Positions 27,795 through 39,123 of a DNA stretch of 49,557 bases are shown here, in pieces; positions within the stretch are counted from its first letter, which is position 1, and every line of letters begins with the position of its first letter. The notes beneath the pieces are model-generated. The model was not told where the DNA came from, did not search any database, and saw only the letters and a list, made by a program, of their open reading frames with translations. The position numbers and the translations under genes are program-made. The stretch is from positions 1 to 49,557 of the forward strand of contig CAIWTN010000055.1 of the NCBI GenBank assembly GCA_903915625.1, given 5' to 3'. The DNA is from an uncultured Pseudomonadota bacterium (GTDB lineage: Bacteria; Bdellovibrionota_B; Oligoflexia; Oligoflexales; CAIYRB01).

Positions 27795-29576
27795 ATGAGG
27801 TTGCGCAGAATGCTGAAATTTAATTCGCTGTTGGCACTGGTGACTGTACTGGCGCTGGTTAACTGCGGTCGGAATAAGCCTAAGCCTTTGCCGCTCGCTG
27901 GTAGTTTGAAGTCGAGTAAATCTAGCGGGTCTCTGGATCATCCATTTAACGAGGCAGATGCGGTTAGTTATCTAGTCGAGCAGTGCGGCGCCTGTCATGC
28001 TGCAGGAGCTCCCCTGGCTGTTACGTGGGAGATGCCGGACGCTAAGGAATTATCCGCAGCAGCGTTGGCTGGCATGGATACCAGCGCTAACGTCTATCAG
28101 ACTATGGTCAATCGCTTTAAGGACGCACCTGAAGGGCAGCAGCCGACACCGATGCCACCCACAGTGGCTGCGGATCAAAAGGCTAAGTTGGGTAGAATGC
28201 TCGAATGGTTTCGCGAGAACGTTCCTTCGGCAGTATCCGGGGCGGAAAGTGTTTATGGCGCCGCCTCTCAATTTGGTAGCACGGTAGCAATTAATCTTAC
28301 TTATCAATGCGGGCAAGCTGTCAGTGGTCGGGAATTCATCAACCGGCTATATCTTGCCGCTTTTGGTCGTCCTCCAACCACTGCTGAAATTAATCAAATA
28401 CCAGCCGATGAACTTGAACAGTCGGTGACGGATAGTAGGCGAGCTGAGTTGACGTCAGCAATTTTCAAAGAAACGAAGCTGAAAAATGAATTTATGACCA
28501 ATGCCGGCGGTGGTCTGCAACTCTTCGCTAAAAGATTAAGCGACGCGAACTCAATTAGACCCTCGCCGCAGAATATCGGGCTTAGCCAAGCGGCCTCGGA
28601 TGATTTAAAAAACGAATTTTATCAGATGCTACTGAAATATATTGAGAGCAAATCGTATAAAGATATTCTCTTAATGCCGAAGGTGCAGGTGTCAGCCAAT
28701 ACTGCGCCCCTATATTCTAAAGATGGAGGTACTCCTTGTGCTCCTCCCGCTGCCGGGACTTGGTCAGAGTGTGACTTGTCGGCCAAGAGGGGCAATTTCT
28801 TCGGTACGATTGCATATCTAAACTCAACGAACACAAGTTTTCTTTCATCTAATAATAACTACCGCCGCGGAGGCACCGTCTTTGCTGTGCTCGCAGGGCA
28901 GTCATTGATGGCGCAAACGAATGCTCCGAAGGGGCAACAGCCAGACCCTGTGCCAAGTTGCGTGACCACCAAAGATGTTCGGATGAGTGCTGATGATCCG
29001 ACCAAGCCAGATGGTCCGAGAGCACCGCTGGGGGCAATGGCTATTCCGCGAAGTGGCGCAATCTGCCAAGGATGTCATCTTTATAAATATTTAAACGTAG
29101 CCTCGTATGTGTTTCGGCCCTTTGACGAGTACGGCTTGGTGTACCCAGCGACGGCGTTCGATGGGCAGGCTAACAATCCCTACAAGGATATGGTTGATGC
29201 TGCTACGGTACCTGGGATCCTAAACGGCGTGGATTTGACAGGACCGGCGCAGCCAGTCACCCCGTTCATACTGAAGTCTCTATTTGAGGAAAACGATAAG
29301 CTCGGAGCGCAGTGTATTAAAGACCGTTCCGGCAAGAAGATTGCGGACGTTGCCAATATCGGTGATTTGGTGAAGTTTATGGTCGGAGACGGCAAGGTGT
29401 TAGTCAATGGACTCTCTCGCTACCTGCCGAAGGTACTTCTCAACCTGTCGTCTACTAATCAGGAAATTGTCTCTGCAGTAGCCAGCGCATACACGAAAGA
29501 CAACGGGATGTTGTTGCCAATATTTGAGGCCTTCTTTAATACCCAAAGCTTTGCCTGTGCGGCCTCAAATAACTAA
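27795..29576 (+). CDS. Di-haem c-type cytochrome lipoprotein, PSD1/DUF1592-like (copy 1)
   Basis: 593 residues from ATG 27795, with GGAGAGG upstream. Lipobox ALVNC lipidates the protein. First haem site CGACH (Cys64, Cys67, His68) is followed by ..PTPMPPT, a likely axial Met. A second CQGCH (Cys424-His428) is followed by a YVFRPFDEYG element that resembles the CxxCH...F..FD..G of DUF1588. The last part (GDLVKFMVGDG...GLSRYLPK) resembles DUF1585. The middle has REFINRLYLAAFGRPPT, as in DUF1592-type domains. The role is unknown in these families (proposed redox or hydrolytic surface enzymes). About three-quarters identical by eye to the copy at 30617, with heavy synonymous divergence. Confidence 0.85.
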   Translation: MRLRRMLKFNSLLALVTVLALVNCGRNKPKPLPLAGSLKSSKSSGSLDHPFNEADAVSYLVEQCGACHAAGAPLAVTWEMPDAKELSAAALAGMDTSANVYQTMVNRFKDAPEGQQPTPMPPTVAADQKAKLGRMLEWFRENVPSAVSGAESVYGAASQFGSTVAINLTYQCGQAVSGREFINRLYLAAFGRPPTTAEINQIPADELEQSVTDSRRAELTSAIFKETKLKNEFMTNAGGGLQLFAKRLSDANSIRPSPQNIGLSQAASDDLKNEFYQMLLKYIESKSYKDILLMPKVQVSANTAPLYSKDGGTPCAPPAAGTWSECDLSAKRGNFFGTIAYLNSTNTSFLSSNNNYRRGGTVFAVLAGQSLMAQTNAPKGQQPDPVPSCVTTKDVRMSADDPTKPDGPRAPLGAMAIPRSGAICQGCHLYKYLNVASYVFRPFDEYGLVYPATAFDGQANNPYKDMVDAATVPGILNGVDLTGPAQPVTPFILKSLFEENDKLGAQCIKDRSGKKIADVANIGDLVKFMVGDGKVLVNGLSRYLPKVLLNLSSTNQEIVSAVASAYTKDNGMLLPIFEAFFNTQSFACAASNN

Positions 29577-29593
29577 AGATACACTTGGAAAAA

Positions 29594-29617
29594 ACCAAAT
29601 TAATTCGGTTATTTGGT
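29594..29617 (+). terminator. Weak inverted repeat between the first cytochrome gene and the lipoprotein gene
   Basis: ACCAAAT (29594-29600) and ATTTGGT (29611-29617) form a 7-bp stem. A short T-rich stretch (cgtctttt) follows, so it may attenuate transcription into the downstream genes. Confidence 0.35.
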
Positions 29618-29708
29618 CGTCTTTTAATACTTTGTGTAAAGTTTTTTTGTGGTCCGACCGATAGCTCTTTACAGAACCAGAAGTTCACAGAATCTGGAGA
29701 GCTAGACT

Positions 29709-30614
29709 GTGGGGAACGCGACAAAATTACGGAGAGCTCATATCGAAGCCGCACTGGCAGTGATGGCGCCGGTGTTTATGATCCTGGTTAGTTGTAGTGC
29801 AGCGAAGCCGATTGCGACTGTACCGAAGGGTGCTCTGTCATCACAGCTTAACTTAGGCAAGTCAGGCAATTTTTCTGAGCAGATTGCTACTGACGACGGC
29901 GACTTTGTGGTGACTCTTGGTCGCAACGGAATAAATAATGTGGTTGCCTCAACGAAAAAGGGTCGCGCTTACGTTGTCGATATTGAGAAGTCGACAGTGA
30001 CGAAAATCAGTCCACTCTATCCAAACCGTGATGAGAGCGTGTTTTCGCTAACTACATCTAGTAAGTATGTGTGGGAATTCTCACCCACTGCAGGGACAGT
30101 CGGTCGTAATAAAACTGCCGCGGGTGGCGGTCAGGTTAACCTCAGTAAGGTGTCCATTTCCGATCTGGTAAGTGATGCGTCAGATCTTGTGCCCGCAGCT
30201 GCAACAGACACACAGTTATATTTGATGGCGAAAGATAGTCTGCTGGTATTTACCTGGGCTGATTCGTCTGTGGGACGTAAGAAAATAAAACTGAGCCGTC
30301 CGTTTGATAGTGATGAAACTATTCTAGGTGCTGGCACTATGGACGAATCTGCACCAGATGCAAGCTTTTGGCTTGCCACATCTAAACGCCTCTTAACTTT
30401 TAGAGTCAGTAGCTGGAGTGAGAAGAGCTTCACAACCAATTCGGATGACAGCCAAGTGAAGCTGATTTCACTTTATTACGAATCTGCACAGGCGAAAGTT
30501 AATAGTGATCCGTTAATAGGATTACTTGATTCAGGTAGTATTGCCGCCCTCGTATTAGGCGCGAAAGATTCAAAATCGGAAGCAGAATCGACCTCTAGCG
30601 AATCGGATGAGTGA
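29709..30614 (+). CDS. Lipoprotein between the two di-haem paralogs
   Basis: 301 residues from GTG 29709. Lipobox LVSC gives the only Cys, which is lipidated. The mature chain is beta-rich with recurring hydrophobic strands and a Trp-Glu-Phe element (KYVWEFSPT), loosely propeller-like, and an acidic Ser/Glu tail (..ESTSSESDE). No family recognised. Its stop overlaps the region of the next gene's start, so it is in the same transcript. Position between the cytochromes suggests a scaffold or periplasmic partner. Confidence 0.7.
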   Translation: MGNATKLRRAHIEAALAVMAPVFMILVSCSAAKPIATVPKGALSSQLNLGKSGNFSEQIATDDGDFVVTLGRNGINNVVASTKKGRAYVVDIEKSTVTKISPLYPNRDESVFSLTTSSKYVWEFSPTAGTVGRNKTAAGGGQVNLSKVSISDLVSDASDLVPAAATDTQLYLMAKDSLLVFTWADSSVGRKKIKLSRPFDSDETILGAGTMDESAPDASFWLATSKRLLTFRVSSWSEKSFTTNSDDSQVKLISLYYESAQAKVNSDPLIGLLDSGSIAALVLGAKDSKSEAESTSSESDE

Positions 30615-30616
30615 AC

Positions 30617-32425
30617 ATGGCTTCACGTTTGATGCAAAAAATTATCCCTTTGCTAGCTTTGCTGGCGCTGCCTCACTGTGCCGAAAGTAGGCCGCAGGTA
30701 AAGGTAGCGAGGAATGCAAAGTTAAATAAGGAGTTAGCACGAAATATCAAGGGAGATGGGGACGCTAAGAGGGTATTCGGGGAGGAAGACGCGGTAGCTT
30801 TTATGGTTGAACAATGTGGAGGCTGTCATTCTCCTGGAATGCCACTTGCTCTAACTTGGGAAATGCCAGAAGAGAAGGATTTGTCTGCCGCCACTTTGGG
30901 TGCAATGGAAAGTAGCGCTAACGTCTATCAAACGATGGTTCATCGTTTCAAAAATGCTCCAGTCGGACAACAGCCCACACCTATGCCGCCCACTTTGGCG
31001 GACGAAAAAATCGACCAGCTAGGGGAGCTGCTTGAATGGTACCGTGAAAATGTACCGACTGCAGTTGCCGGTGCAGAGAGCATCTATGGCGGAGCCTCGC
31101 AATTTGGTAGCGAGGTGGCGATTAACCTCACATATCAATGCGGACAGATCGTTCGAGGTCGAGATTTTATAAATCGATTATATCTCGCCGCACTCGGGCG
31201 CCCACCTACCAGCGCAGAGATTAGAAAAATACCCGTCGACGAGCTCGATCAGCCGGTGACCGATGCTCGTCGCAGTGAGTTGACGGCCGCGATTTTCAAA
31301 GACGCACAGTTGAAGAAGGAATTTCTTACCAATCCTGGTGGGGGACTCCGACTTCTTGCGCAGAGGATCAGTAACGCCGGAGCCATCACTGCTGCGCCAA
31401 AGAATTTTGGTCTCAACCAAACTGCAGCAGATGATTTAAAACAAGAATTTTATCAGATGCTACTCAAGTACGTCGAAGGAAAATCTTACAAAGACATTCT
31501 TTTGATGCCTAAAGTTCAGGTGTCAGCAAATACCGCCCCGCTTTATGCACTTAATGGAGGTGGTCCATGCACAGCACCGCCAGCTGGAACCTGGTCAGAG
31601 TGCGATCTGTCATCCAAACGCGGTAACTTTTTTGGTACCGTAGCTTATCTGAACTCAACAAATACCAGCTTTTTGAACAACAATAATAATTACCGTCGCG
31701 GCGGCACCATATTTGCTGTGCTAGCAGGGCAATCGCTGATGGCGCAGACCAACGGTCCGAAAGGGCAAAAGCCGGATCCAGTACCGGACTGTGTGACTAC
31801 TAAAGACGTGCGGATGGTGGCTGACGATGACAAAAACTTGGAAGGAGCTAAGGCTCCCCTCGGTGCTATGGCGATTCCCCGCAGTGGCGCCATTTGCCAG
31901 GGTTGTCACCTTTACAAGTACCTAAATGTTGCATCTTATGTGTTCCGGCCATTTGATGACTTCGGTTTACTTTATCCGGCATCTGCCTTCAATAAGCCGC
32001 AAAATGGCCAGATGGATAACAACCCCTATAAAGATATGCTGAAGACGGCGACCGCTCCAGGAATTGTTAACGGTGCAGACATCACGGGACCGGCTCAGCA
32101 GGTTGACGCGGCCTTTTTGAAGTCACTTTTCGAGGAAAATAACACTCTTGGCGCTCAGTGTATAAAAGACCGCAGCGGAAAAAAAATTGCAGACATTTCA
32201 AATATCGGTGATTTAGTTAAATTTATGGTGGGTGATGGCAAAGTTCTGGTAAACGGACTATCCCGTTACTTTCCAAAGGTACTCCTAAACCTATCCACAA
32301 CTAACCAGGAGATCGTGACTGCAGTAGCCAGTGCGTATACGAAAGACAATGGCATGCTATTGCCAATGGTCGAAGCGTTCTTCAATACGCAGACTTTTGC
32401 CTGTGCGGCGTCTAGTGGGAATTAG
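30617..32425 (+). CDS. Di-haem c-type cytochrome lipoprotein, PSD1/DUF1592-like (copy 2)
   Basis: About 602 residues. ATG 30617 has GGATGAG 5 nt upstream; an in-frame GTG at 30611 overlaps the previous stop (GTGA) and is an alternative. A hydrophobic start ends in a lipobox-like LPHC. First haem site CGGCH (Cys67 from ATG) with PTPMPPT downstream, second CQGCH (Cys427), then the same FRPFDDFG element and C-terminal region as copy 1. Protein sequence is conserved to the 27795 gene while third codon positions differ widely, so the duplication is old and both copies appear selected. Likely outer-face redox protein; no oxidase or reductase partner is identified. Confidence 0.85.
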   Translation: MASRLMQKIIPLLALLALPHCAESRPQVKVARNAKLNKELARNIKGDGDAKRVFGEEDAVAFMVEQCGGCHSPGMPLALTWEMPEEKDLSAATLGAMESSANVYQTMVHRFKNAPVGQQPTPMPPTLADEKIDQLGELLEWYRENVPTAVAGAESIYGGASQFGSEVAINLTYQCGQIVRGRDFINRLYLAALGRPPTSAEIRKIPVDELDQPVTDARRSELTAAIFKDAQLKKEFLTNPGGGLRLLAQRISNAGAITAAPKNFGLNQTAADDLKQEFYQMLLKYVEGKSYKDILLMPKVQVSANTAPLYALNGGGPCTAPPAGTWSECDLSSKRGNFFGTVAYLNSTNTSFLNNNNNYRRGGTIFAVLAGQSLMAQTNGPKGQKPDPVPDCVTTKDVRMVADDDKNLEGAKAPLGAMAIPRSGAICQGCHLYKYLNVASYVFRPFDDFGLLYPASAFNKPQNGQMDNNPYKDMLKTATAPGIVNGADITGPAQQVDAAFLKSLFEENNTLGAQCIKDRSGKKIADISNIGDLVKFMVGDGKVLVNGLSRYFPKVLLNLSTTNQEIVTAVASAYTKDNGMLLPMVEAFFNTQTFACAASSGN

Positions 32426-32446
32426 TCGCAAGGGAGGAGGTCAGCT

Positions 32447-33148
32447 GTGATAAGTATATTTAAGTCTCTATTGCCCCTAAGTTTGGTTTTGAGTTGTTCA
32501 TCCGGAACCTCTGGAGTGTCCGGTGTTAACAAGTTAGCCACCAAGGGAACGTATAATGGGTCCGTTCGTAGCGATAACGTAGCGACGACTACGGATAATT
32601 ATAAAAGCGTCGATGGTGCCGGATTTACGGTTAAGAACTACCTCCAGTTGAAGAGTGCGACGGAGCAGTGCCTGGGCCCGGGGCTAGGCACCGTGACGGC
32701 CGATATGTTTACCCCTGGTGTGTGTCCAAAGGGGAAAAACATGGGAGCATTGTCTGCCGGCAAGAAGGCTATTCTCGGTGCAGATAAATGTGCCTTGGCT
32801 GCCAGTGGAGCGAATGTTCTGGACGGCAATAAGAACCGTTTGTGGGATCCAGAATCTGCGGCTCGCACTGCGACACTCGCAAATACATTGAATCCAGACT
32901 ATCTATCTGCACTGGCAGAAGTGGCCGACGTATATGCGCATGGTATCTCCGACCCAGTCGCGCTCTGTGGTACTATCGAAGCAGCCACTAAATTACTCGG
33001 TGGTTGCCTAAGTCAGTACGAACCGGCGGCGCTGACCGCTGCGGCTAACGCATTACAAGCTAGTTGCTCTAAGGGTCCAGCGGAAGCTCGTGCAGCGATT
33101 GCAACGATGATTGGTTCTGCAGCATTTGCTGCTAACTCAAAATTGTAA
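32447..33148 (+). CDS. Small cysteine-containing lipoprotein of the cytochrome cluster
   Basis: 233 residues from GTG 32447, with a strong AGGGAGGAGG site. Lipobox LVLSC. The mature helical domain has six further Cys (QCLGPG, VCPKGK, KCALAA, LCGTI, GCLSQ, SCSKG), enough for three disulfides, and no CxxCH. Family not recognised. It lies 21 nt after the second cytochrome gene and 12 nt before the Tat-signal gene, so all are one operon. A structural partner or folding aid of the cytochromes is inference. Confidence 0.72.
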   Translation: MISIFKSLLPLSLVLSCSSGTSGVSGVNKLATKGTYNGSVRSDNVATTTDNYKSVDGAGFTVKNYLQLKSATEQCLGPGLGTVTADMFTPGVCPKGKNMGALSAGKKAILGADKCALAASGANVLDGNKNRLWDPESAARTATLANTLNPDYLSALAEVADVYAHGISDPVALCGTIEAATKLLGGCLSQYEPAALTAAANALQASCSKGPAEARAAIATMIGSAAFAANSKL

Positions 33149-33160
33149 GGGGGTGATGCC

Positions 33161-34699
33161 ATGCGTAAGGCAAACAAGAATAATGTTAAATCGACGCAGG
33201 GATCGCCGCAGGACAATCTGATCATGCAGCGCCGTGCGTTCCTACAAAATGCTTTAATCGGTGGCCTTGGCTACGGAGCATTCAGCTTTTTGAAACATCG
33301 GGGGATGAGCCAAGTAGGTTCGTTTGTACGGGAGTCACTGGCACGTTCCGGAATGCAGCCGCTCAATGCAATTGACGTGATAAACGACGCACTACGGGGT
33401 GGGCCGTCGCTGCTTAATATCGGTCAGGCAATGGCGGCGGATGCGTCGAAGCCAGCTGTATTCCACGTTTTTTACCGGACTTCTCATGATATTCGTAACG
33501 AGCTTTATCTCGGCGATTACGGAAATCAGTATCTGCAGTTTGGTAATGGTAGCGTAAGTCCCGGAGCCATGACCGGTTTGGCTAAGAGTATGCACGAACA
33601 GGCTCCTGCGCCATTAAGTCGGTTGAATAAATGGGCTTACGATATTTTTACCACCGGTAAGATCGACGCGACCACTGCCTTTGGGGCGTCCCCTGCCAAG
33701 GCAGCTCTAACTCCTGCTGAGTTAAAAAATGTATCTATTATCGCCGCTGTTGGTATGCCTGGTAGTCAAGGCGTGCATCAAAATGCGGTGATTCCTGGAT
33801 CGGGAAATCTTGAGTATGTGATGCAGCAAAGTTTCTCAAATTATAGTCCCGTAGGTTCTGTGTTAATAGACGCTAATGGTTACGATGGAAGCGGCGCTGT
33901 GCAGATACCAGCTAGGTCGGTGAAGGAGTTCTTGGGGTCGATTGCCGTACCAGGGACTTACATGTCGCGGGAGAAGGAAGGTAATCCGGTTGAGCTTTTT
34001 GATGAACTCACTGGATCGCCGGCCGTAACAGCTGTCCGAGCACAAATGCTTGATGCCTATAAGTTACTGAAAGAACAACTTTCCAAAATTCAGCAATATG
34101 GTCCTATTGCGGATGCTTCGTTTACGACTTACGGTGCCCGTAAGATGAACGGACTGTCGGGCATGATGATGTTCGCGGATCTCTTTAGTGCCAAGCTGGC
34201 CTACATAGGGGGTTGTGGCATGGATTCACACGACTTCCATGCAACAGATGCCTTGCGAATGCCTACTGGTGCCAAGGGTAATATGGTAACAGAAACGGCA
34301 CAGGCTCTGGCCGGAGCTTTTTATATCGCTCGGGCAGCATTAGATTCGAAGCAGGACGCCATCATTCACTTTAGCACCTGCAGTAACCGTAGCCAGAACT
34401 GGGTGAATGACAATCAGCACGTTTCGACTCTGACTTTTATCATCAAAGGATCTGGTGATAGCTGCCCATATGTCAACGTACCGGGGCAACAGTTGCTGAT
34501 CGCAGACGGGGCTAAAAATATGTATGCCGAGGGTCCTGGGCAGGCTCCGACGTTCTCCAGTGCCGAAGCGCAAAAGCTTGGCATGAACGGTGCTGGTAGA
34601 GTCGGCAGTTTGGAAGCAGGCATCGTTGAGTCAGTCGGTAAAGCTATCGGTCAACAACCCGCGGCGATGCTGGCGAATCCACCTGCAAAAATCATTTAA
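33161..34699 (+). CDS. Tat-exported protein of the cytochrome cluster (DUF1552/DUF1501-like partner)
   Basis: 512 residues. The N-terminus carries a twin-arginine motif (Arg24-Arg25, RRAFLQNA) followed by a hydrophobic segment, so export is probably as a folded protein. The body has a conserved-looking GGCGMDSHDFHA element (possible metal ligands Asp/His) and an HFSTCSNRSQNW element. Planctomycete and myxobacterial DUF1592-type proteins are typically encoded beside Tat-exported DUF1552 or DUF1501 proteins; this gene takes that place, though I cannot assign it to either family with certainty. It ends the operon. Confidence 0.7.
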   Translation: MRKANKNNVKSTQGSPQDNLIMQRRAFLQNALIGGLGYGAFSFLKHRGMSQVGSFVRESLARSGMQPLNAIDVINDALRGGPSLLNIGQAMAADASKPAVFHVFYRTSHDIRNELYLGDYGNQYLQFGNGSVSPGAMTGLAKSMHEQAPAPLSRLNKWAYDIFTTGKIDATTAFGASPAKAALTPAELKNVSIIAAVGMPGSQGVHQNAVIPGSGNLEYVMQQSFSNYSPVGSVLIDANGYDGSGAVQIPARSVKEFLGSIAVPGTYMSREKEGNPVELFDELTGSPAVTAVRAQMLDAYKLLKEQLSKIQQYGPIADASFTTYGARKMNGLSGMMMFADLFSAKLAYIGGCGMDSHDFHATDALRMPTGAKGNMVTETAQALAGAFYIARAALDSKQDAIIHFSTCSNRSQNWVNDNQHVSTLTFIIKGSGDSCPYVNVPGQQLLIADGAKNMYAEGPGQAPTFSSAEAQKLGMNGAGRVGSLEAGIVESVGKAIGQQPAAMLANPPAKII

Positions 34700-34785: not shown

Positions 34786-35388
34786 TCAGCGAGCTGAGAC
34801 AGGTGCAGTGGTCTGCGGAAATACGGTCGCAGCCGTTGTTCTCGGAGCGATTGTTCTCGGAGCGGTTGTACTTGGTGGCATGATTGGTGCCGTTGTCTGC
34901 GGGAGCACAGTTGCTGCTGTTGTGCTCGGAGCGGTAGTGCTCGGAGCTGTTGTGCTCGGTGCCGTGGTCCCTGGTAGCGATGTAGGCGCGGTGGTCTGCG
35001 GTACTATAGTTGGTCCGGTGGATGCCAGCGTATTGCGATTGTGAAGCGACACGAGAAGTAGCCAAACTAGTAAGGTAGCCATGCGAGTATGTAGGCCACA
35101 AATTACAGCAAGTGCTGCCATGGCTGTAGCTAGGAATAATAAAATCGCTGCAGTGTCTGTACCATTAATCATGTACAGAGACGTGTCAACGGCCGCTCCA
35201 AACGACGAGGCGAGGATGGAGCGAGGCATGATGCCACTATCGGTGTAGTGGGCTGTTAGATCGCGGCTACGTATGGATAGGTCCGCCAACACCAGTGAGC
35301 CAATCGTGATCCTGAATAGCGCCAGTGACCGCAGGTCTATCGAGAAAATGTTTCGCAGTTTAAACATGTTCGGCAATACAGCCCTCAA
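34786..35388 (-). CDS. Truncated HTTM (gamma-carboxylase-like) protein with Thr/Pro repeat tail
   Basis: 200 residues. Residues ~14-121 match the start of bacterial HTTM proteins: FSIDLRSLALFRI, an ..HYTDSGIMPR element, hydrophobic helices and ..LLVSLHNRN. Complete HTTM proteins usually continue NPLVLNGGD.. for more than 150 further residues; here the frame changes at HNRN to a tail of repeated TTAP/TTAPST units (coded 34800-35020). The frame stays open to 34786. It is either a decayed gene whose 3' part was replaced by expanding repeats or a short membrane protein with a mucin-like tail. HTTM function in bacteria is unknown. Confidence 0.6.
   Translation of the reverse strand: MRAVLPNMFKLRNIFSIDLRSLALFRITIGSLVLADLSIRSRDLTAHYTDSGIMPRSILASSFGAAVDTSLYMINGTDTAAILLFLATAMAALAVICGLHTRMATLLVWLLLVSLHNRNTLASTGPTIVPQTTAPTSLPGTTAPSTTAPSTTAPSTTAATVLPQTTAPIMPPSTTAPRTIAPRTTAATVFPQTTAPVSAR
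34805..35020. repeat. 15-bp tandem repeat array inside the HTTM-like gene
   Basis: Units close to GTTGTGCTCGGAGCG recur about ten times, and a longer ~85-bp pattern (TCTGCGG...GTTGTNCTCGGAGCG) occurs twice. The array is in frame (multiple of three) and reads as Thr-Thr-Ala-Pro-Ser on the minus strand. Confidence 0.75.
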
Positions 35389-35544: not shown

Positions 35545-36936
35545 ATGAAACAAATACTGCAGCAGCTAGTCGCAGGGCATTCCGGGTTTATTGAGTTGCG
35601 CTATCACAAACGCACGTCCAATTCTTTTGTCGCGCAAAAAGGTCGCGTCGATGTTGCTAATCATTCAGTAACCGAGGGAGTTGGTGTCAGGGCATTGGTG
35701 GGTAGCGCCTGGGGATTTGCCGCAACCGCTGATATCAGCGAGGCTGCAATTAAGCGTGCTATACGGCAGGCACAGTACAATGCCTCGGCGTTAGCGAAGG
35801 TGCGTGCTAAGGGAGAGTTAAGTTTGGCCCGTGGTCGACTTAGCCATTTGGATTTTACCGGTCCTGGTTTCAGCGAGCTGGTAGCGATGCCACTAGCCGA
35901 TAAATTAGGGCAAATCGTTAGTCTGGAGCGCAAACTGGCGCAAGCGTCCAGCCGGATGCATACGGCGCGGTGCCGCTACAACGAAATCATCGAAGAAAAG
36001 TCGATTGTGACCTCCGATGGTGCTGCCTGCTCGCTACGCCTAGCGCAGCCGGAGCTGTCGCTGACGGCCATCGCCGAAAAAGACGGCGAGCGTGCCACTG
36101 GTCAGCGTGGCGCTGGCGTCAGTGGCGGCTGGGAGTGCTTACTAGCTCACCCTTCACTACATGATGCTGTGGGTGAGACGGCAAAGATTGCGGTAGATTT
36201 GCTTGCAGCAAAATATCCCGAGGGTGGTCAAAAGACTGTGATTCTTTCGCCGGCAGTCGTCGGGCTTCTTTGCCACGAAGCGATTGGACACACGGTCGAG
36301 GCCGACTTCGTCAAAGCTGGATCGGTAGCACAAGGTAAGATCGGCCAGCGCGTGGCTTCTGACCTTGTGACTATGGCTGATTCCGGTAACGAAACGATTG
36401 CTGGCTACGCGGTCGGTAATCTGCCCTTCGACGACGAAGGGGTCGAGACTGAGAATACGGTGATTATCGATAAGGGTATTCTCCGGTCGTATTTGCATAA
36501 TCGTGAGACCGCGGCTGAATTCGGCGTGCAGCCAACAGGCAATGCACGCGCTTGGTTATTTAATGACGAGCCGCTGATTCGGATGCGCAACACCTACCTG
36601 ATGCCTGGTACTCGCCACCTCGCTGACATGATTGCCGAGGTGGACGATGGTTATTTAGTCGAGGGCGCTGGATCGGGTCAGGCCGACGCTAACGGTGAAT
36701 TCATGTTTGGTACCGGTTATGTGTACCGCATCAAAGATGGCAAGAAGACTGAGCTCCTGCGCGAGGCGACTTTATCTGGTATTGCCTTTGACGTGTTGAA
36801 GACGGTCGATGCCGTCAGTCAAGAATTTCTCTGGGATTTAGGCACCGGATACTGCGGCAAGGGTCAGGCGGCAAAAGTTGATGCCGGCGGGCCGTATGTG
36901 CGTTGTAAGATCACCGTGGGAGGAGAGCAGCAATGA
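35545..36936 (+). CDS. tldD: Metalloprotease subunit TldD
   Basis: 463 residues. The N-terminal strand-rich domain is followed by the metal motif CHEAIGHTVEADF (HExxxH, His244, Glu245, His249). The third ligand is expected in the late LGTGYCGKG element (Cys437), as in E. coli TldD. GSGQADANGEF and LREATLSG blocks are also typical. TldD with TldE forms a heterodimeric protease that degrades unfolded or ribosomal peptides and processes some modified peptides (e.g. microcin B17). It overlaps tldE by 4 nt (ATGA), which fits equal production of the two subunits. Confidence 0.95.
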   Translation: MKQILQQLVAGHSGFIELRYHKRTSNSFVAQKGRVDVANHSVTEGVGVRALVGSAWGFAATADISEAAIKRAIRQAQYNASALAKVRAKGELSLARGRLSHLDFTGPGFSELVAMPLADKLGQIVSLERKLAQASSRMHTARCRYNEIIEEKSIVTSDGAACSLRLAQPELSLTAIAEKDGERATGQRGAGVSGGWECLLAHPSLHDAVGETAKIAVDLLAAKYPEGGQKTVILSPAVVGLLCHEAIGHTVEADFVKAGSVAQGKIGQRVASDLVTMADSGNETIAGYAVGNLPFDDEGVETENTVIIDKGILRSYLHNRETAAEFGVQPTGNARAWLFNDEPLIRMRNTYLMPGTRHLADMIAEVDDGYLVEGAGSGQADANGEFMFGTGYVYRIKDGKKTELLREATLSGIAFDVLKTVDAVSQEFLWDLGTGYCGKGQAAKVDAGGPYVRCKITVGGEQQ

Positions 36937-38297
36937 GTGACGCCGCACAAGTAGATGACTTAAGCAAAGTTGCCGCACAACTTAATAAGCTAGCTGAATT
37001 TGGCCTAGATACCGCCAAAAAACTAGGCGCTGATGCTGCTAAAATTAGCACTGGGGCATCGTTCCAAAAGCGTTTAGTGGTCGACAACAAAGAGTTTACT
37101 CTCGCGAATAGTTTGGCCTCGCGCAGCATTGGTATCGTCGTTCATAAAGACCAAAAAAAGGGCTCGGCTTCGGTCAATATCACGACAGAAGACAGCATTA
37201 AACACGCCGTCGAAAGTGCTCTTGCCTTAGCTAAATATTCAGTGCCAGATCCAGCGCTGGTTTTTGCCACAAAGGCTGAAGCGGCACCAGCAACTCCGCT
37301 GAATTTTCTCTACGAGGAAAAGCTGGCGACCGTTGAACTGGATCAGATGCGCGAAATCATGCAAGAAGTGCTTGGTCGTCTCGGTGCTGACGAGCGCTTG
37401 GCGCTGGAGCGTTATGAGATGTCGGTCGATATTTCTTTTCATGCGCTGGGCAGTACCACGGGAATGCGGCAGGCCGAGCGGCAGACCATGGCAAGTTGGT
37501 CCTTCATGGGTATGGGGCGTACCGAGGATGAAGTGACAGGCTTTGACTATGACGGCAATTTTTCGCTAAGTGCAGCTGGGATATTGCCGCGCAGCTTGGT
37601 GGATGCCGATCAGTTTGTTAAGCGCGTCCTGGGAATGTTTAAACCCGTACGTTGTCCGAGCTACCGTGGTGCGATTTTGCTGACGCCGCGAGCGGTGCAA
37701 GAATTACTCATGGGCATGATGCTTTATCATGCTGGTGGGCGCCAGGTGATGGACGGTAAAAGTCGTTGGGACAAAGCGGTCGGTACGCGCGTAGTCGCCG
37801 ACTCTTTTACCCTGACGGATTTACCCCATGACCCACGCTTTTCCGGCGCAACCGCATTTGACGGTGATGGTGTGCCGACGCGCTCGCAGACGATTCTCGA
37901 GCGCGGTGTTTTGCTGCGTCATCTTCATGATTGTTACAGCGCTAAGCGATGCGGTGCCACAACCACGGCCACGTCTGGTGGGCCATTCGCTCTGTCTTTG
38001 AGTCCAGGAGCCATCCCACTTAAAGATCTAATTAAAGGGCAGTCGCAGCTCCTAGTTGTGGATCGCTTTTCTGGCAATTCAGATCCAATCAAAGGTGATT
38101 TCAGTGGCGTTGCCAAAAGCAGTCGGCTTTTTGCGAACGGCGAGGACCGTGGCAGTGTCACCGAAACCATGATTTCCGGTAACTTTTTTGCCATCGCCGA
38201 CGCTGTGCTAGGGATCAGCCGAGAGAGTGAAATCGTCAGTGGATCTTTTTCTAGTCCGTATGTGCTGATTGACGGCGTCTCTGTGACGGGCCAATAA
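36933..38297 (+). CDS. pmbA: TldD partner protein TldE/PmbA
   Basis: 454 residues. It shares the TldD fold but has no HExxxH, as expected for PmbA/TldE, the non-metal-binding partner. Recognisable elements are IGIVVHKDQKKGSASVN near the start (in pieces), GAILLTPRAVQELL in the central part, DGDGVPTRSQTILERGVLLRHL (in pieces) and a C-terminal SPYVLIDGVSVTG. It starts inside the tldD stop codon. A terminator follows 32 nt after the stop. Confidence 0.94.
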   Translation: MSDAAQVDDLSKVAAQLNKLAEFGLDTAKKLGADAAKISTGASFQKRLVVDNKEFTLANSLASRSIGIVVHKDQKKGSASVNITTEDSIKHAVESALALAKYSVPDPALVFATKAEAAPATPLNFLYEEKLATVELDQMREIMQEVLGRLGADERLALERYEMSVDISFHALGSTTGMRQAERQTMASWSFMGMGRTEDEVTGFDYDGNFSLSAAGILPRSLVDADQFVKRVLGMFKPVRCPSYRGAILLTPRAVQELLMGMMLYHAGGRQVMDGKSRWDKAVGTRVVADSFTLTDLPHDPRFSGATAFDGDGVPTRSQTILERGVLLRHLHDCYSAKRCGATTTATSGGPFALSLSPGAIPLKDLIKGQSQLLVVDRFSGNSDPIKGDFSGVAKSSRLFANGEDRGSVTETMISGNFFAIADAVLGISRESEIVSGSFSSPYVLIDGVSVTGQ

Positions 38298-38475: not shown

Positions 38476-39123
38476 ATGATCTCAGTAATGATTTCGGGAC
38501 AGGTGTCAGGCAACATTCATCCAACTAAACTCAATCTACTGTTTGTATTAGCGCTGGGTGCGGTGTCCATCTCCACCGGTTGCGCGTCGGAACCGGCAGC
38601 ACCAGCTAAGGCAGCCGTGGTCGTCAATAAAGACTTGGATGATAATCAGAGTGTAGACGAGGGTACTGATCAAGATGGGGACGCAGATTTGGCCTCTGAC
38701 GGTCAGGGTAGTTGTGACTCACAGTTATCTGGAGACGCTACAGCTTTAGCTTTGAGCGATTACTCGTCAGATGCAACTGCCGCATGCGACATTGATATAG
38801 GTAGTCCGTCGAAAGTAAATACGAGAGTGCCAGCGCCGGCTGTTGCATCAACACCTAGTTCGCTTTCATCCTCACCAAGCTCTTTCCCGAGTGCAAATCC
38901 AACGGGGAGCCTAGCTAGTAGTAATCCTCTGGGTGGGGCTGGTGGCGGCCTTGGTTCGCTACTCGGCGGTTTAGGTGGTGCTGGCGGTGCGGGTGGCGGC
39001 CTTGGTTCGCTACTCGGTGGTTTAGGCGGTGCAGGTGGTGGCCTTGGCTCTCTCCTTGGCGGTGCTGGCGGTTTAGGCGGGTTGCTCGGTGGATTAGGTG
39101 GCGCGCCAACAGGCTCGCCTTAA
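38476..39123 (+). CDS. Gly-rich repeat lipoprotein
   Basis: 215 residues from ATG 38476. Lipobox ISTGC gives the lipidated Cys. Residues ~50-75 are acidic (Asp/Glu-rich). A Ser/Pro-rich linker leads to a C-terminal tail of ~70 residues made of GGLGSLLGGLGGAGG-type repeats, coded by a near-identical tandem of about 65 bp. Highly Gly/Leu tails can be flexible or self-associating. No family recognised. Translation may be controlled by the folded leader at 38413-38468. Confidence 0.75.
   Translation: MISVMISGQVSGNIHPTKLNLLFVLALGAVSISTGCASEPAAPAKAAVVVNKDLDDNQSVDEGTDQDGDADLASDGQGSCDSQLSGDATALALSDYSSDATAACDIDIGSPSKVNTRVPAPAVASTPSSLSSSPSSFPSANPTGSLASSNPLGGAGGGLGSLLGGLGGAGGAGGGLGSLLGGLGGAGGGLGSLLGGAGGLGGLLGGLGGAPTGSP
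38934..39110 (+). repeat. Gly-rich coding repeats
   Basis: Units of GGTGGCGGCCTTGGTTCGCT-type sequence followed by CTCGG(C/T)GGTTTAGG recur three or more times, encoding the Gly/Leu tail of the 38476 lipoprotein. Confidence 0.8.

Follow-up and report, generated by a model that had tools for sequence, protein, structure and literature searches.

A conserved three-gene unit of a predicted di-haem cytochrome, a cysteine-rich lipoprotein and a Tat-exported protein, and its relation to PSCyt/DUF1501-type pairs

Planctomycetes, verrucomicrobia and their relatives are rich in proteins of the PSCyt, DUF1501 and DUF1552 families. The PSCyt2 and PSCyt3 genes each adjoin genes of one specific uncharacterized family, and some PSCyt genes, in Verrucomicrobia, bear carbohydrate-binding modules, the function of PSCyt being given as unknown (PMC5615132). 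Cbp2D of Cellvibrio japonicus, a DUF1587-bearing cytochrome of the same wider class, is, together with Cbp2E, required for normal growth of this organism on cellulose, as found by knockout, and its X183 domain reduces lytic polysaccharide monooxygenases (LPMOs) (PMC8981238). Here we describe five co-directional open reading frames (ORFs) on one strand, designated CytA, P2, CytB, P4 and Tat, at positions 27795-34699 of contig CAIWTN010000055.1 (assembly GCA_903915625.1) of an uncultured Pseudomonadota bacterium; the whole stretch analysed, of 49,557 nucleotides, is referred to as the window. A sequence-only reading had proposed a duplicated, lipid-anchored di-haem cytochrome system with a twin-arginine translocation (Tat) partner, and the five genes, with two paralogous lipoproteins of two CxxCH each, were confirmed at these coordinates. 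Its statement that one cytochrome plus one DUF1552/DUF1501 protein is the usual form agrees with the literature (PMC5615132) and with four canonical DUF1592+DUF1552 pairs found elsewhere in the same genome (contigs C139, C208, C159 and C199). Judged by sequence comparison, the locus carries a real, conserved and unnamed system that is a divergent branch of this known cytochrome/DUF1501-type pair.

The three-gene unit and its distribution

The conserved unit is a trio of cytochrome, P4 and Tat genes, the second cytochrome and P2 being genus additions. The three genes are adjacent in 15/15 complete loci read (the window, L004 and L029-L041), with the Tat gene divergently oriented in L040, and of 56-58 genomes sampled from the phylum the cytochrome and P4 profiles both picked out the same 13, i.e. 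about a quarter. P4, previously taken for an unrelated lipoprotein, thus always adjoins the cytochrome and is an obligate third member. Likewise, the five-gene duplicated form proved to be a local elaboration, as a survey of gene neighbourhoods recovered that order in two species only (G000, the genome of the window, and G005), the conserved order being that of three genes.

Two loci were present in eight of the 13 carriers (G000, G003, G004, G005, G008, G048, G050 and G052). The cytochrome and Tat trees showed the same split into type I, which includes the window, and type II, which includes the locus on contig C5 of G000; most two-locus genomes hold one of each, with both copies of G008 lying outside type I. 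Types I and II are ancient. The distance matrices of cytochrome, P4 and Tat correlated with r values of 0.89-0.93, to which shared descent contributes and which were matched in 0/300 permutations. A short form with the same three-gene order and a one-haem cytochrome, type III, occurs in G001, G002 and G053.

That five independent lipoprotein and Tat genes lie together by chance would fit the finding that promoter- and terminator-like sites at the locus are no commoner than in shuffled sequences, so that no transcript boundary is demonstrable. Against this stand the 4-base overlap of P2 and CytB, the gaps of 21 bases between CytB and P4 and of 12 bases between P4 and Tat (CytA and P2 are 132 bases apart), and the presence of the trio in 13 genomes, usually in two paralogous copies. 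We regard chance assembly as highly improbable; it is contradicted for the trio and may hold for P2.

Several trios have further exported proteins as neighbours. Beside those of type II (L004:2540-9260 on C5 of G000, L032 of G005, L039 of G008, L038 of G023 and L037:11253-15604 of G048) lie two such proteins, one with a lipobox-like Cys behind its signal and one Tat-exported and of ~330-400 aa, in which no Pfam family was found except the Tat signal. In three class-level relatives the type I loci have an extra lipoprotein gene adjoining Tat (L034:12021-13235, L035:13121-14017 and L036:4389-5834), with a C-terminal CxxCH in two of the three, L034 and L036. The type III loci (L044:5986-9241, L045:7715-10970 and L042:10338-14648) consist of a one-haem cytochrome, a Cys lipoprotein and a Tat protein, and directly upstream of these in L042 is a separate lipoprotein with two CxxCH, which looks like haem 1 placed on a chain of its own.

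Relationship of the three proteins to known families

Pfam and NCBIfam searches of the window proteins gave no match at cut-off. For CytA the best Pfam values were 0.13 (DUF1549) and 0.19 (DUF1588) and for CytB there was no match, so that Pfam-level membership in DUF1592/1588/1585 was not found; some relatives do match, 14 of the 18 family members hitting Cytochrome_CBB3 (best 2.9e-6) and a few hitting DUF1592 (5.4e-4), DUF1595 (0.0029) or DUF1588 (0.0043). When hhalign was used to compare the family profile with canonical DUF1592 cytochromes, taken from this genome and related ones, an E value of 2.7e-8 was obtained, which fell to 1.1e-10 once the short relatives were included and to 2.6e-12 with 34 canonical sequences. 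The alignment covers DUF1592 to DUF1585, and reversed controls gave 0.08-0.13. With E values so far below the controls, profile comparison establishes CytA and CytB as homologues of the DUF1592-1588-1585 (PSCyt3) cytochromes, and the likeness proposed earlier stands at this level, albeit far below the Pfam cut-offs. The second CxxCH lies in the DUF1588/1585-like region in 18/18 members. DUF1587 and DUF1595 gave no match in the CytA or CytB chain, whereas canonical copies match both, and searches of solved structures with the cytochrome profile and with the haem-1 segment returned no match. DUF1800 was unsupported as a homologue of the CytA/CytB family (profile E 0.35). Canonical cytochromes gave 0.0025 with DUF1800 (control 0.27), and at G033:C166:19061-19285 and G036:C54:88343-88594 weak matches to DUF1800 lie over or next to genes for DUF1592-type cytochromes; DUF1588/1585 and DUF1800 may be distantly related.

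Each cytochrome contains exactly two CxxCH motifs and 11 Cys residues, namely one lipid Cys, four in the motifs and six others. Both CxxCH, Met125 (CytB numbering) and the six non-haem Cys are invariant among 18 aligned relatives, whose identity ranges from 26 to 94%; as the CxxCH motifs persist down to 26-29% identity, their chance occurrence is excluded. Met125 lies in a P-x-P-M-P-P context ~50 residues past the first CxxCH, about where the axial Met of the class I cytochrome c architecture is expected, and we infer for CytB haem 1 a class-I-like N-terminal domain with predicted His73/Met125 ligation; the candidate axial ligand in CytA is Met120, in PTPMPP. Downstream of the second CxxCH no Met or His is invariant among the relatives, which suggests that haem 2, in the DUF1588/1585-like domain, may occupy an open or catalytic site. 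Covalent attachment of haem is predicted at both motifs, and the genome also encodes cytochrome c assembly proteins. As to the lipid anchoring claimed for the cytochromes, the putative lipid Cys is invariant in 18/18, while the preceding residue is unusual: members outside the genus have A/G/S-C, whereas this genus has VN-C or PH-C, so that the -1 position of CytA and CytB is a non-standard Asn or His. Lipidation of CytB is therefore predicted as likely rather than textbook.

The N-termini of P2 and P4 resemble lipoprotein signals. P4, the 6-Cys lipoprotein of the sequence-only reading, has six Cys besides its lipid Cys, the latter being invariant in the aligned P4 proteins. The small Cys lipoprotein found in type III loci is a homologue of P4 (E 7e-10); no P4 member matched Pfam. 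The C-terminal half of P4 aligned with the DUF1595 part of canonical cytochromes with an hhalign value of 0.0048 (reversed controls ~0.5) and a score of 28, the maximum in 150 column permutations being 20, and is perhaps weakly DUF1595-like. P4 could hence be a detached DUF1587/DUF1595 part and the trio a split canonical pair, in keeping with the missing DUF1587/1595 match in CytA and CytB. The test on this segment only was weak (score 19.7, equalled or passed by 4/200 permutations) and the Pfam searches lend P4 no such domain; we thus hold the split, which would be compatible with a divergent PSCyt/DUF1501-type system, to be possible and somewhat doubtful.

The last gene encodes a Tat-exported protein, as previously noted, with the signal QRRAFLQ, whose RR is invariant in 18 relatives. 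All 18 sequences, with identities as low as 15%, share the residues R24, R25, G81, A92, H206, R293, D358, R410 and D417. Matches to DUF1501 or DUF1552 in Pfam were found in 0/18 Tat members, and the window locus was not among the matches of genome-wide PF07586 and PF07394 searches. The profile of 18 rows gave only 0.0092 against DUF1501, but did so at the D-x-H, helix and SEFGR positions; with the short type III relatives added it reached 4.6e-8 for DUF1501, over the D-x-H ... SEFGR signature, and 4.6e-5 for DUF1552, with reversed controls at 0.2-0.4. By profile comparison, Tat is accordingly a remote relative of DUF1501/DUF1552, alkaline-phosphatase-superfamily-like proteins, and with both partners so related the system is best placed within the known pair, as a strongly diverged branch, and not set apart as a new system without relatives. 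No named function for the operon was found in any source searched, a literature search retrieved no paper on it, and there were no plasmid records; the claim of an undescribed system is upheld in this respect, and qualified in that the branch belongs to a known pair. Searches of solved structures with the Tat profile and with a canonical DUF1552 protein gave no match. Solo Tat paralogues, ~59% identical, occur outside trios at L055:1222-4074 (G003:C20) and in L056 (G004:C126), that of G003 adjoining a lipoprotein with two CxxCH (Cytochrome_CBB3 1e-7).

Organization of the window locus

The CytB frame is listed in Table 1 from its GTG; the ATG at 30617, which coincides with the start of its orthologue, is the likelier true start.

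Table 1. Features of the window locus and its surroundings
Feature	Position	Strand	Description
CytA	27795..29576	+	593 aa, upstream paralogue of the di-haem lipoprotein
CytA first CxxCH	27984-27998		CGACH
CytA Met120	28152		candidate haem-1 axial ligand
CytA second CxxCH	29064-29078		CQGCH
P2	29709..30614	+	lipoprotein, 301 aa; its single Cys is the lipid Cys
CytB	30611..32425	+	core di-haem lipoprotein, 604 aa from GTG
CytB first CxxCH	30815-30829		CGGCH
CytB Met125	30983		predicted haem-1 axial ligand
CytB second CxxCH	31895-31909		CQGCH
P4	32447..33148	+	core 6-Cys lipoprotein, 233 aa
Tat	33161..34699	+	core twin-arginine-exported protein, 512 aa
ORF	34786-35388	-	weak HTTM-like N-terminus (E 0.3), then Thr/Pro/Ser repeat
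84-base repeat	34802-34961		within the preceding ORF
PmbA/TldD-type pair	35545-38297		metallopeptidase pair
Lipoprotein-like ORF	38476-39123		
Tandem repeats	38941-39072		Gly-rich, 42/51 bases, within the preceding ORF

CytA and CytB are 73% identical and form separate branches of the tree, both being present in G000 and G005 (L027) only. G003 and G004 have a single cytochrome in the order P2-Cyt-P4-Tat, flanked on both sides by the same genes. Silent sites of CytA and CytB are saturated (0.72), and among the sequences of G000 and G005 385 sites group by paralogue and three by genome. On these sequence data, the two genes represent an old in-place tandem duplication in which both copies are conserved; gene conversion is ruled out by the same site counts. 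P2, which was found in four species of this genus only, upstream of the cytochrome, and belongs to no known family, is an accessory lipoprotein and a genus-level addition.

Downstream of Tat, the ORF on the opposite strand has the appearance of a truncated or degenerate gene, with none at the matching place in G005, and the PmbA/TldD-type pair follows the operon in G003 and G004 too.

Possible roles and comparison with described systems

On balance we consider it probable that the operon represents a lipid-anchored, strongly diverged offshoot of the two-partner redox systems of PSCyt/DUF1501 type, with three proteins as its unit. The di-haem chains and P4 would be membrane-bound and face the periplasm or the outside; the surface location and degradative function suggested by the sequence-only reading may apply. 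Within the complex that we infer the proteins to form, P4 would probably serve as a structural subunit or redox-partner adaptor, and Tat, exported in folded form and possessing a DUF1501-like core with a conserved His/Asp/Arg set, would probably be the substrate-facing enzyme or binding subunit. Haem 2 and haem 1 could exchange electrons with each other and with either a small cytochrome or the respiratory chain, and the substrate would meanwhile be presented or modified by the Tat partner. By guess from the relatives this substrate is most plausibly a carbohydrate-rich polymer; CytA may act as a retained, diverging second electron-transfer chain. The module would thus perhaps take part in polymer oxidation.

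Several observations weigh against this interpretation. Neither a glycoside hydrolase nor a carbohydrate-binding domain nor any further named enzyme could be recognized in the operon, so that the polymer role is argued from distant relatives. The significance of the DUF1501/1552 comparison requires the type III rows, the values before their inclusion being the above 0.0092 and, over the Tat signal only, 0.0011. AlphaFold models, built from three sequences each, had a predicted local distance difference test score (pLDDT) of 31 for Tat and 35 for P4 and are unusable for fold or complex. LPMO_10 is absent in the carriers G005, G008, G023, G048, G050 and G052. An obligate role as LPMO donor was rejected as a general function since the presence of LPMO_10 does not track the trio.

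Alternatively, the operon might encode an electron-output or -input module, its lipoproteins delivering respiratory electrons to extracellular acceptors or, in a peroxidase-like manner, to O2 or peroxide, with Tat as a docking or maturation partner and not as a polymer-active enzyme. The class-I-like haem 1, a haem 2 without conserved distal Met/His, a weak CCP_MauG match (0.066) in one member and the further CxxCH lipoprotein of the type I loci L034 and L036 would all suit such a module, whereas only two haems are predicted per chain, no porin-cytochrome or multihaem conduit was seen in the loci read, and the invariant His/Asp/Arg set of Tat suggests an active or metal site; we consider this unlikely. 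Still more speculative, and in our view rather improbable, is a distinct class of three-subunit envelope oxidoreductases, which would combine a di-haem lipoprotein with an open-site haem 2, an obligate disulphide-rich lipoprotein and a Tat-exported enzyme of alkaline-phosphatase fold that employs electron transfer in a reaction new to this fold. If this were true, types I and II could be kept together as two steps of one pathway. The two paralogous trios kept in most carriers are a further clue to a two-step role. The invariant residues (haem 1 His/Met; H206, R293, D358, R410 and D417 of Tat) make the function testable.

Among the described systems, Cbp2D (CBM2-YceI-X183-DUF1587-X132) likewise has a class-I cytochrome c domain and, after it, a second domain with CxxCH, which is of the DUF1587-associated type, but it joins several domains in one chain, among them carbohydrate- and quinone-binding ones that the window lipoproteins lack. 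The DUF1800-DUF1501 pair, with a two-gene core elsewhere, resembles the present system in its Tat-exported DUF1501-like partner. Here no DUF1800 lies beside Tat; this genome has none, and only a few of the relatives do. Closest to the window operon, as a divergent PSCyt/DUF1501-type branch, is the pair of a PSCyt3-type cytochrome (DUF1587-DUF1595-DUF1592-DUF1588-DUF1585) and DUF1552, with which it shares an exported C-terminal DUF1592-1588-1585-like core with CxxCH and, encoded next, a twin-arginine protein that belongs to the DUF1552/DUF1501 superfamily. CytA and CytB differ in having two predicted haems, where the canonical copies read have mostly one, in the lack of a Pfam-level match and of recognizable DUF1587/1595, and in the sequence after CxxCH, which is FRPF-x3-G in the window family and (M/I)DPxGF-x-x-E-x-F in PSCyt3-type cytochromes. 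The branch is invisible to automatic annotation yet retains the pairing of cytochrome and Tat partner, and its persistence despite such divergence strengthens the case for the pairing as a functional unit, to which the window family adds six invariant extra Cys and, in the Cys-rich lipoprotein P4, an obligate third subunit.

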